A model generated the notes under the pieces. That model was given only the letters and a program-made list of their open reading frames with translations. It was not told where the DNA came from and did not search any database. The position numbers and the translations under genes were made by a program. A stretch of DNA of 32,952 nucleotides. It comes from Gemmatimonadaceae bacterium (GTDB lineage: Bacteria; Gemmatimonadota; Gemmatimonadetes; Gemmatimonadales; Gemmatimonadaceae). Within the stretch, counting starts at the first letter, position 1; every line of letters begins with the position of its first letter. This document shows, in pieces, positions 14,938 to 30,016 of this stretch. Where the stretch lies: positions 1 to 32,952 of the forward strand of contig JANWLO010000156.1 in assembly GCA_025450815.1 (NCBI GenBank), read 5' to 3'.

Positions 14938-15054
14938 AGATGATAACAATGCCCGATTCCGCCCATTGCGACAACGCCGCGTGACCCCCGCCAGCAGGGG
15001 GCCGTCATCTCTCACCGGCATCATCCTCGCCATTTCCGTTTCGTGTGGTGCATC

Positions 15055-15951
15055 ATGGATCTTCAGCCGATCGCAGCCCTGCTCGTCACCGGTGACTCAC
15101 CAGCCTCGCGCCTGTTGAGCGCGTCGCTCGCGCCCTCGGTGCCGTCGCGCCTCCCCGCCTTCACTCTCGTTCCAGTGCCAATGGGCGATGAGGCGCTCGC
15201 GAGACTCGCGGACCAGCGCGTCGATGTCGTGCTGCTCGATCTCACGGGGCCGCTGGACGTCGCCATGGACGTGCTCGTGCGCATGCGCATCCAGGCTCCA
15301 GATGTGCCCGTGGTGGTGCTGGTCGAGCCAGGACACAAGGGCGAGTCGAACGGTGCCGCTGCAATCGAAGTTGGCGCTTGCGACTCTGTCGTGAAAGAAG
15401 AGCTGAGCAGCGCGCTGCTCACTCGCGTGCTTCACTACGCGATCGAGCGCTATCGCCTGCACGCGACGCTCGAGCAGCTCTCGCTCACCGATCCGCTCAC
15501 AGGTCTCTACAACGCGCACGGCTTCCGCACGCTGGCCGAGCATCATCTCAAGCTCGCGCACCGCACCCGCGGACTCGTGGTCGCGGTGGCCGACGTACAA
15601 TCGCTTGCCGAGATCAATGCGTCGCACGGCCGCGACGAGGGCGACCGCGCGCTCGTGGCCGCGTCGCAGGTGCTGCGCGAGACCTTTCGCGCGTCCGACG
15701 TCATAGCCCGCATCGGCGACGATGACTTCGCGACGCTCATGCTCGATGCCGCCGACGACACCACCGACGTCGTCGCGCCACGGCTGCGTGAGCGGCTCGA
15801 CCATCATTTCCAGGCGCATCGCGGATCGCCGTGGAAGCTCGCGATGACAGTCGGAATCGTCCGCGTGGCGCCGGGGATGCACCCCGCGATCGAAGATCTC
15901 CTCGCGCAGGGCGCAGCGGTCGCCGCGGCGGAGCGGGCGCGCGTGGCGTGA
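15055..15951 (+). CDS. Receiver-like protein with degenerate GGDEF domain
   Basis: The 298-residue protein has a response-regulator-like N-terminal half (about 5-125, with VVLLDLTG around Asp62) and a GGDEF domain (about 140-290) that starts at the typical LTDPLTGLYN (144-153). The active-site loop reads GDDDF (221-225) instead of GG[DE]EF. The KxxND motif region is AEINAS, keeping the Asn but not the following Asp. Diguanylate cyclase activity is therefore doubtful; a binding or scaffold role is more likely. No inhibitory RxxD site stands out. I chose ATG 15055; a GTG at 15043 is also possible and neither has a good ribosome-binding site. It is monocistronic, about 120 bases before the methyltransferase. 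Confidence 0.85.
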   Translation: MDLQPIAALLVTGDSPASRLLSASLAPSVPSRLPAFTLVPVPMGDEALARLADQRVDVVLLDLTGPLDVAMDVLVRMRIQAPDVPVVVLVEPGHKGESNGAAAIEVGACDSVVKEELSSALLTRVLHYAIERYRLHATLEQLSLTDPLTGLYNAHGFRTLAEHHLKLAHRTRGLVVAVADVQSLAEINASHGRDEGDRALVAASQVLRETFRASDVIARIGDDDFATLMLDAADDTTDVVAPRLRERLDHHFQAHRGSPWKLAMTVGIVRVAPGMHPAIEDLLAQGAAVAAAERARVA

Positions 15952-26046: not shown

Positions 26047-26580
26047 GTGTCGTCGCCCGAATTGGTCATCGTCGGGCGCATGCGCAAGTCCCACGGGCTC
26101 CGCGGTGAGCTGATCGTGGAGCCGATCACGGACGCGCCGGCCGAAGTCTTTTCGGCCGGCCGTCGTCTTTTCGCTGGCGACGCCGACGGCGAGCCGCTCC
26201 CCGAGCCGCCCGAGCTGATAGTCCGCGAGTCGCGGGCGCACAACAACGGACTGCTGATCGTGCTCTTCGAGGGAATGCGCGACCGCGACGAGGCAGCGCG
26301 CTGGACCACTCGCTACATCGTCGCGCCCGCAGCGGAGCTCGAGCCGCCGGCGAGGGGCGAGGTGTACGTGCACGAGCTGGTGGGGATGCGTGTGGTGCTC
26401 GAGTCGGGCGAGCTCGTAGGTACGGTGAGCGATGTCTTCGAGCTCCCGCAGGGGCTCGCGCTCGACGTCGAGCGCGCCACCGGAACGGTACTGATCCCGT
26501 TCAACGCTGCGTTCATCCACGAGGTGCAGCGAGACTCGCGCACCGTCGTGATCGCACCGCCGCCGGGGCTGCTCGACTGA
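26047..26580 (+). CDS. rimM: Ribosome maturation factor RimM
   Basis: This 30S assembly factor acts on the S19/head region. The 177-residue protein starts at a GTG four bases after rpsP. The N-terminal RimM domain shows VGRMRKSHGLRGELIVEP. The PRC-barrel C-terminal domain has VYVHELVGMRVV, GTVSDVFELPQG, LIPFNAAFIHEV and the end RTVVIAPPPGLLD. Length and both domains are normal. Its TGA stop shares one base with the trmD ATG, so translation of the two is probably coupled. Confidence 0.95.
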   Translation: MSSPELVIVGRMRKSHGLRGELIVEPITDAPAEVFSAGRRLFAGDADGEPLPEPPELIVRESRAHNNGLLIVLFEGMRDRDEAARWTTRYIVAPAAELEPPARGEVYVHELVGMRVVLESGELVGTVSDVFELPQGLALDVERATGTVLIPFNAAFIHEVQRDSRTVVIAPPPGLLD

Positions 26581-27254
26581 TGCTGCGCGTCTCGATCGTC
26601 ACGATCTTCCCCGAGTTCTTCACGACCACGCTTGCGCTCAGCATCCCGTCGCGGGCGGCGGCAGCGGGAGGCGCGTCGTACAACGTGGTCGATCTTCGTG
26701 CGTTCACACACGACCGGCATCGCACGGTGGACGACTATCCTTTCGGCGGCGGGGCAGGGATGGTGATGAAGCCCGATCCGTTCTTCGAGGCAGTGGACTC
26801 CATCGGCGCAACGTCGCCCATAGTGCTCGTCTCCGCGCGCGGCCGCCCGTTCGAGCAGGGCGACGCCGTGCGCTACGCCGCGGGCAGCGAGCTCACGATC
26901 CTTTGCGGGCACTACAAGGACGTCGACCAGCGCGTCGCGGACCATCTCGCCACCGAGGAGATCTCGCTCGGCGACTTCGTGCTGAGCGGCGGCGAGGCGG
27001 CGGCGCTCGTGATCGTGGACGCCACGGTGCGGCTGCTACCTGGCGCGATGTCGGACATGGACAGCGCGCGCACCGATTCGTTCTGGGACGGGAGTGAGTT
27101 GAGCGCCCCGAGCTACACGCGGCCCGCCGAGTATCGCGGTCGCAAGGTCCCGGATGTATTGATGTCGGGCGACCACAAGAAGATCGCCGAGTGGCGCGCG
27201 GCGGAGGCGGAACGACTATCGAGGGCGCGTGTGCGAGGGGAAAAAGAGGGGTAA
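26580..27254 (+). CDS. trmD: tRNA (guanine-N1)-methyltransferase TrmD
   Basis: This SPOUT-family enzyme makes m1G37 in tRNAs, guarding against +1 frameshifts. The 224-residue protein has VSIVTIFPEFF, the DYPFGGGAGMVMKPDP loop, the SAM-binding knot (LCGHYKDVDQRV and ISLGDFVLSGGEAAALV), and SFWDGSELSAPSYTRPAEYRG and VLMSGDHKKIAEWR at the end. The knot loop has Lys-Asp where most TrmD proteins have Glu-Gly; Lys occurs there in Bacteroidetes from memory, so I read it as lineage variation. In most genomes rplS follows directly; here it lies 2.4 kb away, with a riboswitch-controlled protease between. Confidence 0.96.
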   Translation: MLRVSIVTIFPEFFTTTLALSIPSRAAAAGGASYNVVDLRAFTHDRHRTVDDYPFGGGAGMVMKPDPFFEAVDSIGATSPIVLVSARGRPFEQGDAVRYAAGSELTILCGHYKDVDQRVADHLATEEISLGDFVLSGGEAAALVIVDATVRLLPGAMSDMDSARTDSFWDGSELSAPSYTRPAEYRGRKVPDVLMSGDHKKIAEWRAAEAERLSRARVRGEKEG

Positions 27255-27580
27255 AGACGGGCGTAGAGTGCAACATTACGTGCCCATTTTTATGAGGTTT
27301 TACTCATGGGCATGGTCATCCGTCTCTCGTGTAATCGCGCCGAATGAGGGGAGCGGGAGCTTCTTGTCTGGCCGCTCAGTCAGTTCGATGAAGTAGCTCG
27401 TTTCTGCTTCTGTTCTTTCGTTGTGCCAGGCAGTACCCTGGGGCCAACACAACGACGCCGGATTTTCAGCACGAATTCGTTTCGCTGCACGCTGGTTCGG
27501 TCGCTCACTTCTGAGCGACCGTATCCGAAAGCTGTTGTGTTCACCAATTGCTGTCGCACGGTTACTGAGCCGATGGTTTA
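27255..27580. other. Lower-GC intergenic stretch before the riboswitch
   Basis: This stretch between trmD and the riboswitch is visibly poorer in G+C than its surroundings. It contains a nested inverted repeat at 27282-27311 (GCCCA with TGGGC, TGAG with CTCA) that could end the trmD transcript. A perfect 10-bp stem with a CTTC loop (27498-27507 and 27512-27521, CGGTCGCTCA) is not followed by a T run. On the minus strand an open frame ends at 27300 and covers residues such as CWPQGTAWHNERTEAETSY. Its codons (AGA, ACA, TCA) are unlike the neighbours, so it could be a remnant of a foreign gene. I could not identify it. The promoter of the riboswitch transcript must lie here, but I could not place it. 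Confidence 0.45.
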
Positions 27581-27669
27581 GTGACGAGGGCAAAGCCGTC
27601 GAAAGGCGGCGACGCAAAGCCACGAGGCTAACGCATCACTCGCTGATGCCACGCCAGTCGAGCTGTCGC
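27581..27669 (+). promoter_or_regulatory. Cyclic-di-GMP-I (GEMM-I) riboswitch
   Basis: The stretch matches the GEMM-I aptamer in order and pairing. P1 is GUGAC (27581-27585) with GUCGC (27665-27669). The conserved GGGCAAA is at 27588-27594. P2 is GCCGUC (27595-27600) closed by a GAAA tetraloop onto GGCGGC (27605-27610). The invariant GACGCAAAGCC is at 27611-27621. In P3, CGA/UCG and GGC/GCC flank an AG bulge, then the UAAC/CAC receptor region, then a perfect 6-bp stem (27633-27638 with 27644-27649). It lies in the 5' leader of the subtilisin-like protease, ending 17 bases before the GGAG ribosome-binding site and 28 before the ATG. No terminator lies between, which favours control of translation. 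Confidence 0.92.
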
Positions 27670-27697
27670 GCGGACCCTGTACCCATGGAGTCCCACG

Positions 27698-29488
27698 ATG
27701 AAACGCCTCCTCGCCGGATGCCTTGGCATCCTCTCGCTCGCCGCCTGCAACGACGCCACCGCGCCGTCTCCCGTGCAGTCGACTCCTCCCCACACCACCG
27801 CCAACTCGCCGAACGCGGACGTCTGGGCGGGGCACTACATCGTCGTTCTCAAGTCCGGCTCGGCGACTCCCGAGAATCTGCTGCATCGAATTTCCTTCCG
27901 GCACGCGTTGATGCTCGATCAGAAGTTCGGCACGGTGATGCACGGCTTCGCCGCCGCCGTCGACTCGGGCGACCTCGATAAGCTGCGCGCCGACCCGGAC
28001 GTCGATCGCATCGAGCCCGACCGTTTCGTGAAGCAGATGGGCAGCCAATCCGGAATGGGCTGGGCGCTCGACCGCCTCGACCAGCATGGTCTGCCGCTCA
28101 ACAACACGTTCAGCTACGGCGCTACGGGTACCGGCGTGAACATCTACATCGTCGACGGCGGCATTCGGTACACACACTCGGAGTTCGGCGGACGCGCACA
28201 CCTTGCCTTCGATGCGCTTGGCGGCAACGGCTCCGACTGCAATGGACACGGCACCGGCGTGGCCGGCATCGCGGGTGGCAGTGTGCACGGCGTCGCGAAG
28301 AGCTCCACGATCTGGTCTGTTCGCGTCTTCCCATGCAGCGGCAGCACTCCGCTATCCACCATCCTCGCCGGCGTCGATTGGGTGACTGCTCACCACAGAT
28401 CGCCTGCGGTCGCCAACCTGAGCCTCGGCGCCGGCACGGCTCCGATTCTCGACAGCGCCGTGTCCAAGTCGATTCAGTCTGGCGTCACGTACGTCGTCGC
28501 GGCCGGCAACAGCGGTGTCGATGCGTGCACGTCGTCGCCCGCCAAGGTAAAGACTGCGATCACCGTCGGCGCGATCGACGTCACCGATCTTCGCCCGTCA
28601 TGGTCGAACTACGGCTCCTGCGTCGCGCTATTCGCCCCGGGCGTCAACGTTCCCGCGGCGGACTATTACTCGGACGCGTCGCTCGCGAACTGGACCGGCA
28701 CCTCCATGGCAGCGCCCTACGTCGCCGGCGCCGCAGCACTCTACTTGAGCGAACACCCAACCGCGTCGCCCGCCACCGTCCGCAGCGCCCTCACGAGCAA
28801 CACGACGAACAGTCTGCTCGCGAATCTCCTGGGCTCGACCAACAAGCTCCTCTACACCGGGTGGATTGGCGGTACCAGCGCACCGGCCGCCGCGCCTGCG
28901 AAGCCGGCTCCCAAGCCGCCGTCGATCACGCCAGTGGGCGGCGTAGGTGCCGAATACGCATGCGCCTCGCGTGTCTGCTCGTTCGACGCCGGCGGATCCG
29001 GGCCCACGGGCGGGGTCACCAGCTATCTCTGGTCGTTTGGCGACGGAACCACGGCGTCGAGCCGCTCCGCCACGCACACGTACGGCGGTACGGTCTCGAG
29101 CGTCGCCTTCAGTCTCTCGATTGTGACGGGCACTGGGAAGAAGTACTACGTGAGCAAATCGATCGCTCCGGCGAGTTCATCCGGGTCGGCTACCAGCACA
29201 GTTCCCACGTACGTTCCGCCCTCCACGCCTCCGAGCTCGAGCAACAACATCTCACCGTCTTTCACGGCGACGTGCACCAGGAGCCACGTTTGCGCATTCA
29301 ACGCCTACAAGTCCGTGGTGCCCAAGGGTGTCTCGTCCTATCGCTGGGCGTTCGGGGATGGCTACACCGGCAGCGCGGCCGCGTGGACGCACACCTACTC
29401 AGGCAGGAAAACGGTGAGCGTCACGCTGACGATCGTCGACAAGTCGTCAGCCTCCAAGTCGGTGACGAAGACGATCGCAGTGCCATGA
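27698..29488 (+). CDS. Subtilisin-like serine protease (S8, proteinase K type), lipoprotein with two PKD domains
   Basis: This is a 596-residue secreted protease. The signal sequence ends in a lipobox (LSLAAC, Cys17), so it is probably lipid-anchored at the cell envelope. An I9-type propeptide (about 42-112, GHYIVVLKSG to VDRIEPDRF) precedes the S8 catalytic domain with Asp153 (IVDGGI), His184 (NGHGTGVAG), oxyanion Asn271 (AAGNSG) and Ser336 (GTSMAAPYVAG). A Pro/Ala linker leads to two PKD domains (about 420-495 with SYLWSFGDGTT, and 520-596 with SYRWAFGDGYTG), which often bind polymer substrates or other surfaces. The ATG has GGAG seven bases upstream. A cyclic-di-GMP riboswitch sits in its leader and a strong terminator follows, so it is an independent unit inside the trmD-rplS cluster. 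Its substrate is unknown; a surface adhesin is conceivable by analogy with c-di-GMP-controlled proteases elsewhere. Confidence 0.95.
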   Translation: MKRLLAGCLGILSLAACNDATAPSPVQSTPPHTTANSPNADVWAGHYIVVLKSGSATPENLLHRISFRHALMLDQKFGTVMHGFAAAVDSGDLDKLRADPDVDRIEPDRFVKQMGSQSGMGWALDRLDQHGLPLNNTFSYGATGTGVNIYIVDGGIRYTHSEFGGRAHLAFDALGGNGSDCNGHGTGVAGIAGGSVHGVAKSSTIWSVRVFPCSGSTPLSTILAGVDWVTAHHRSPAVANLSLGAGTAPILDSAVSKSIQSGVTYVVAAGNSGVDACTSSPAKVKTAITVGAIDVTDLRPSWSNYGSCVALFAPGVNVPAADYYSDASLANWTGTSMAAPYVAGAAALYLSEHPTASPATVRSALTSNTTNSLLANLLGSTNKLLYTGWIGGTSAPAAAPAKPAPKPPSITPVGGVGAEYACASRVCSFDAGGSGPTGGVTSYLWSFGDGTTASSRSATHTYGGTVSSVAFSLSIVTGTGKKYYVSKSIAPASSSGSATSTVPTYVPPSTPPSSSNNISPSFTATCTRSHVCAFNAYKSVVPKGVSSYRWAFGDGYTGSAAAWTHTYSGRKTVSVTLTIVDKSSASKSVTKTIAVP

Positions 29489-29545
29489 GCTGAATTCGTC
29501 CGGCCGCGTGCCCTGTGCGCGCGGTGCAGCAAATCGAGCGATCAT

Positions 29546-29581
29546 GAGGGCGATCAATGGCTTCGGCTATTGATCGCCCTC
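29546..29581 (+). terminator. Strong intrinsic terminator after the protease gene
   Basis: A 16-bp stem (29546-29561 with 29566-29581, one G-T wobble) is closed by a C(UUCG)G tetraloop and followed by a T-rich run (CTGTTCTTGATT). It separates the protease transcript from rplS, which therefore needs its own promoter in the ~70 bases that follow. Confidence 0.88.
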
Positions 29582-29653: not shown

Positions 29654-30016
29654 ATGCATGTATTCATCGAAACCCAGAAGGAATATCTCCGCACCGACAT
29701 TCCGCCCTTTCGTGCGGGCGATACGCTGCGCGTGAACGTACGCGTAAAGGAAGGAGAAAAGGAGCGGCTGCAGGCCTTCGAGGGCGTGTGCATCGCCAAG
29801 CGCGGTAGCGGCGTGAGCGAGACCTTCACGGTTCGCAAGATCTCCAACGGCGTCGGCGTCGAGCGAATCTTCCCGCTCCACAGCCCGATGCTTGGCGACG
29901 TGCACGTGGTTCGCCGTGGCCGCGTTCGCCGCGCGAAGCTCTACTATCTGCGTGCCGCCACCGGTAAGGCAGCGCGGATCAAGGAGCGCAAGATTCAGAT
30001 CGCCAAGCCCGCGTAG
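29654..30016 (+). CDS. rplS: 50S ribosomal protein L19
   Basis: The 120-residue protein starts at the ATG at 29654 ([17 protein letters not shown]) and shows the L19 signatures [50 protein letters not shown] and [11 protein letters not shown]. An open frame upstream begins inside the terminator hairpin and was rejected. Separation from trmD by the protease cassette is unusual, and the upstream terminator means it must have a promoter between 29582 and 29653. I could not identify that promoter. The rnhB gene follows after 25 bases. Confidence 0.97.

Follow-up and report, generated by a model that had tools for sequence, protein, structure and literature searches.

A natural G20/U92 variant of the GEMM-I riboswitch, with a predicted start-codon hairpin, precedes a subtilase lipoprotein gene between trmD and rplS in Gemmatimonadaceae

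Can a riboswitch be assumed to sense c-di-GMP because its family does, when the base that should pair with the ligand has changed, and in which direction would it then act on the gene behind it? This question is raised by a cassette lying between trmD and rplS in the draft genome of a soil bacterium of the Gemmatimonadaceae (68.5% complete, with four RF01051 copies). A preliminary description of the contig concerned, whose 32,952 nt we refer to as the window, had proposed there a lipoprotein protease under direct RNA control by a c-di-GMP riboswitch. The aptamer does lie directly upstream of the protease gene, and control by the RNA is still the straightforward reading; what that description missed is that U replaces C at the ligand-pairing base in the whole protease lineage, so that membership of the family is not by itself enough to assign c-di-GMP as the ligand. 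The parts of the cassette and its two flanking genes are on the forward strand.

The location of the cassette was confirmed by its flanks, trmD (26580-27254; PF01746, E = 3.4e-49) and rplS (29654-30016; PF01245, E = 7.2e-50), with Ffh, rpsP and rimM before it alongside trmD and RNase HII after it alongside rplS. The gap between the two flanking genes is 2403 nt here. Of eight sister-family genomes with a readable gap, seven have 48-63 nt and one has 119 nt, and the gap measures 105-179 nt in five other Gemmatimonadaceae; this comparison implies that the riboswitch-protease cassette is an insertion. The close trmD-rplS spacing expected from the preliminary description was thus recovered in these genomes, whereas the gap is longer in other members of the family. 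Elsewhere in the window, positions 15043-15951 encode a response-regulator-like protein with a GGDEF domain of degenerate signature (GDDDF).

RF01051 (c-di-GMP-I, or GEMM-I) was the sole Rfam match returned by cmscan in the whole window, with 70.1 bits (E = 5.4e-12; gathering cut-off, 35 bits) over the full model (positions 1-87). The aptamer is therefore complete, as previously proposed, with bounds of 27579-27670 in place of 27581-27669, and its end is separated from the start codon by 27 nt. Alignment to the Rfam consensus places the equivalent of G20 (Vc2 numbering) at 27589, where G is kept and the A that is the hallmark of GEMM-Ib is absent. The equivalent of C92 falls at 27666 and, like C75 in the Geobacter aptamer, immediately precedes the 3′ strand of P1; the C that is typical, if not absolute, for RF01051 at this position is absent, and U stands in its place. 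In the structures known for the family, this very residue (C92 in Vc2, C75 in Geobacter) pairs with one base of the ligand, which for C92 is the second base, a guanine in c-di-GMP. The P1 helix beside the pocket is short, with three pairs and one G-U pair among them, and 90.9% of its alignment cells are paired, a value for which slides of -3 and +2 are equally good.

The gene behind the aptamer (27698-29488, from an ATG at 27698 to a stop codon ending at 29488) encodes a 596-aa subtilase with the lipobox LSLAAC, a propeptide (Inhibitor_I9), an S8 catalytic domain (Peptidase_S8, 1.1e-35) and two PKD domains (PKD_4 in two stretches), in agreement with the subtilisin-like lipoprotein described earlier. 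Its best PDB relative is aqualysin-I (4dzt, E = 2.4e-93), to which VDGG, NGHGT and GTSMA, the motifs of the catalytic Asp, His and Ser, all align. The 16-bp UUCG hairpin that had been taken to close the unit was also found at 29546-29581, as a 16-pair stem with a TTCG loop; it is terminator-like, the T tract after it being weak, and long hairpins likewise stand 3′ of the protease in relatives.

RF01051 is present in 40 of the 60 relatives, with up to nine copies per genome. All five sampled genomes of the genus show the order trmD-riboswitch-protease, and rplS stands behind the protease in the four whose fetched stretch extends that far. In a second Gemmatimonadaceae genus (g22, n = 6), the riboswitch was found in every genome and the protease in five, one of them cut by a contig end; here, rplS follows the riboswitch-protease pair where it could be read, and an aldehyde dehydrogenase gene lies between trmD and the riboswitch. 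The protease of G134 (G134:C735; L171, 900-1700) has decayed to a short remnant, and a U92 riboswitch is kept there ~220 nt before rplS. Related proteases also follow trmD in G014, G016 and G019, with rplS seen behind them in G016 and G019, and no recognisable riboswitch was found before these three trmD-linked genes; a search for a hidden weak riboswitch before them and before the trmD-linked protease of G020 returned none.

Across both genera, proteases linked to the riboswitch group together in one clade (support 100/99), and because they go back to a single shared ancestor, the eleven U92 copies do not represent eleven independent events. Between the genera, the catalytic domains are ~45% different, and the sequence 5′ of the element aligns poorly and lacks a comparable conserved block, conservation beginning sharply at 27554, which together argue that the element is under constraint.

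All eleven protease-linked copies (G134 with its decayed protease counted) combine U at position 92 with G at position 20, and the ordinary GEMM-I copies within the same genomes have C at 92. Twin patterns differing solely at base 92 retrieved 12 U copies (one per genome) versus ~62 C copies among close GEMM-I copies of 179 family genomes; across a sample of 395 genomes of the phylum, U92 turned up in G006, in G407 and otherwise in no genome outside the two genera. Since the patterns are strict, these results are lower bounds. The U is fixed in 11/11 copies while the adjacent P1 and J1/2 bases vary, and G20, GGCAAA and GACGCAAAGC (pocket core, contains A47) are equally invariant. In three copies (G004, G025 and G138), position 14 is A and can no longer pair with C93 in P1. 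In one of them (L056, G004:C353), J1/2 moreover reads ATTGT, not ACGAG, and since A18 is lost and the 14-93 pair broken, this copy may not bind ligand. By its sequence, the protease-linked GEMM-I RNA forms a subclass of its own (G20, U92); with an altered ligand-pairing base, the switch may differ in sensitivity or even respond to another signal.

The same base recurs in the predicted expression platform. A hairpin spanning 27665-27699, which we call the OFF hairpin, is predicted with the same fold in all eleven copies (-11.4 to -15.3 kcal/mol); it pairs G91-U92-C93-G94 with CGAU and GGAC with GUCC, and encloses the Shine-Dalgarno sequence GGAG (27687-27690), itself invariant in 11/11. In the window, the paired CGAU includes the AU of the AUG, with U92 predicted to pair with its A; CGAU persists in G002 and G004 despite a start codon shifted by 2 nt. 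Changing U92 to C in silico weakens the hairpin by 1.7-2.5 kcal/mol. In a comparison of hairpin energy, the U92 set reached -12.4 versus -7.1 for shuffled sequences and the C92 set -6.1 versus -5.9, so that a Shine-Dalgarno hairpin in the ordinary C92 copies was rejected as not above shuffles. Within the alignment, 94.6% of the cells of the OFF hairpin are paired, and whole-structure covariation is 0.111 against 0.051 when shuffled (1/500 shuffles reach it), a signal that supports the inner tip only, because the innermost variable pair (columns 162/169: CG 5, UA 4, GU 1) accounts for each of the five double changes. Nine of the remaining pairs are invariant and the other two show no covariation; the outer pairs give none since they never vary, and for those predicted at the start codon, the support comes from their invariance and folding energy, with the retained CGAU of G002 and G004 and the weakening by U92C also bearing on them. 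Two other candidates were discarded: a transcription terminator, for which the 27 nt from aptamer to start leave no room, and a general change in Shine-Dalgarno accessibility upon binding, with no net effect among 60 copies (6 up, 8 down).

On the 5′ side, the conserved block beginning TCGCACGGTT... (27554-27585) contains an 11-bp anti-P1 hairpin, in which 27561-27571 pairs with 27575-27585 and thereby occupies the P1 5′ strand and J1/2. Formed by a GUUAC-type with a GUGAC-type sequence, it is predicted in all eleven U92 leaders (-9 to -22 kcal/mol), and 96% of its cells are paired, as against 27-64% when slid. Because column shuffles are not exceeded and reach its score, proven covariation was rejected, and the helix counts as conserved pairing.

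In the predicted folds, both hairpins are mutually exclusive with the aptamer through the P1 strands. The reading that we favour, and to which we assign about an even chance, is that of a translational riboswitch of the G20/U92 subclass, probably ligand-ON, which would bind c-di-GMP with altered affinity and control the cell-envelope subtilase lipoprotein. Without ligand, G91-U92-C93-G94 would pair with CGAU at the start codon, the Shine-Dalgarno sequence would lie inside the same hairpin, the upstream hairpin would sequester the P1 5′ strand, and translation would be low. Binding of a cyclic dinucleotide, most likely c-di-GMP with a G-U wobble at 92, would let P1 form, free the start-codon region and allow the protease to be translated. 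We infer the ON sign from the competition of hairpins and aptamer for the P1 strands, since ligand binding should then free the start-codon region, and we infer the ligand from the GGDEF domains read in seven genomes, 43/43 of which have the canonical Asp at the residue that marks Hypr enzymes, making c-di-GMP the expected signal. The model would offer two compatible explanations for U92, namely, a lock on the AUG by the ligand strand and an altered binding, with c-di-GMP weakened by the wobble or a mixed G/A ligand favoured. For the copy in the window, the P1 state is modelled as ~11 kcal/mol less favourable than the free state, so that switching would need co-transcriptional control.

With P1 forced, the inner Shine-Dalgarno hairpin is still paired and modelled Shine-Dalgarno accessibility is equal in both states, so that the probable ON sign rests on the release of the start-codon pairs only. 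The persistence of this hairpin would suit the opposite sign, with the same aptamer and ligand, in which c-di-GMP represses the protease and adhesins remain on the surface at high c-di-GMP; the class I riboswitch of PPEP-1 in C. difficile is likewise an OFF switch, adhesins being shed at low c-di-GMP. We consider this unlikely, because release upon P1 formation is the sole change predicted for the start-codon region, and the stretch from aptamer to start contains neither a terminator nor any other OFF device.

A change of ligand is a more doubtful alternative. If G20 reads a G and U92 an A, the RNA would bind 3′,3′-cGAMP (or linear pGpA) in an orientation opposite to that of GEMM-Ib, and the natural G20/U92 subclass would be one whose ligand-contact base doubles as a start-codon lock and whose preference has moved towards cGAMP or pGpA. 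Position 92 indeed pairs with one base of the ligand in Watson-Crick fashion, the fixation of its U amid varying neighbours would fit, structures of Vc2 C92U exist (3MUR, 3UD3 and 3UD4), and the Vc2 double mutant G20A/C92U binds c-di-AMP, which shows that base changes at 20 and 92 do move specificity. Start-codon pairing, however, accounts for U92 without a new ligand, and no Hypr-type (cGAMP-making) domain occurs among the 43 GGDEF domains of the seven genomes, so that we regard the shift in ligand, and the subclass defined by it, as improbable. The least probable reading is that the aptamer is decaying or no longer switching while the conserved hairpins keep translation at a low, constant level: the loss of A18 and G14 in G004, the short P1 with its G-U pair and the lost protease of G134 would agree with it, but GACGCAAAGC and G20 are invariant in 11/11 with no comparable conserved block upstream of the element, and scored aptamer copies reach 64-71 bits.

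In the favoured ligand-ON reading, the protease might trim co-regulated Ig-like surface lipoproteins. By a strict rule, 50 of the 65 close G20 copies in relatives precede lipoprotein-like ORFs (versus 2/45 control ORFs), usually at a distance of 17-27 nt from aptamer to ORF, and Pfam matches among 65 downstream proteins comprise Big_2 (35), Big_1 (20), S8 with PKD (8) and ricin-type lectin (5). The Ig-like lipoproteins behind GEMM-I in Gemmatimonadota look like a surface regulon. Among the relatives in families f1 and f2, most of the sampled c-di-GMP-I riboswitches are followed at a distance of 17-27 nt by a lipoprotein with many bacterial Ig-like domains.

Several other GEMM-I arrangements were seen in the relatives. 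A20 (GEMM-Ib-like) aptamers occur at G014:C199, G014:C477, G016:C87, G024:C51, G027:C1 and G032:C425 (L074, L075, L078, L094, L098 and L104), most with a divergent GCAC...CGCAAAGCCAGGA core and one preceding a weakly STAS-like protein. Tandem aptamers, two or three at ~160-180 nt from each other, were found at L111 and L112 (G036:C3 and G036:C36) and in G053 and G051, those of G036 having A20 and GACGCAGAGC and standing before long lipoprotein-like ORFs. An aptamer with C20 (L052, G003:C224:1132-1222) has its nearest downstream ORF, pilin-like, 225 nt off. A long imperfect inverted repeat of ~143 bp (L225 4718-4860, G016:C95) attracts false microRNA matches.

Changes at position 92 were previously made in the laboratory in Vc2, and a natural, conserved C92U with G20 retained offers a direct means of asking whether such changes are how GEMM-I specificity or affinity evolves; if a cGAMP or pGpA preference of G20/U92 were true, it would be a further natural specificity route for the GEMM-I fold. 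The predicted platform suggests a compact design for translational control, with ligand and start codon in competition for the same base. The downstream genes point to a c-di-GMP regulon of surface lipoproteins that extends throughout the Gemmatimonadaceae and in which another version of the switch governs the protease. A literature search, itself incomplete, found no prior description of such a competition or of such a lipoprotein regulon.

Compared with known systems, the protease resembles the aqualysin-I/proteinase K family (S8), its catalytic domain being aligned across 272 residues with three complete motifs, and differs from it in the lipoprotein signal and the two C-terminal PKD domains. 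The RNA shares with Vc2-type c-di-GMP-I (RF01051) the three-helix aptamer, the conserved P2/P3 sequences, G20 and a place directly 5′ of an envelope-related gene, but departs from it in the natural U at C92, the predicted pairing of the ligand strand with the start codon and the upstream anti-P1 hairpin. As in the GEMM-Ib cGAMP riboswitch (Geobacter pilM type), the same fold has an altered ligand-contact base; GEMM-Ib, however, has A at position 20, whereas here 20 stays G and 92 changes. The closest parallel in arrangement is C. difficile, where PPEP-1/ZmpI (CD2830), a secreted adhesin-shedding protease, is under a class I c-di-GMP riboswitch (PMC11477304): in both cases a secreted-type protease stands directly behind a GEMM-I RNA and other c-di-GMP riboswitches precede surface proteins. 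PPEP-1 is a metalloprotease with known adhesin substrates under a transcriptional OFF switch, unlike the subtilase lipoprotein described here with its short, translational-type leader. By analogy, a differently tuned protease switch next to adhesin-like proteins under ordinary switches would resemble PPEP-1 and its adhesins. Riboswitch control of a secreted, adhesin-shedding protease is thus already known from C. difficile, and what is new here is the U92 subclass with its predicted start-codon platform.
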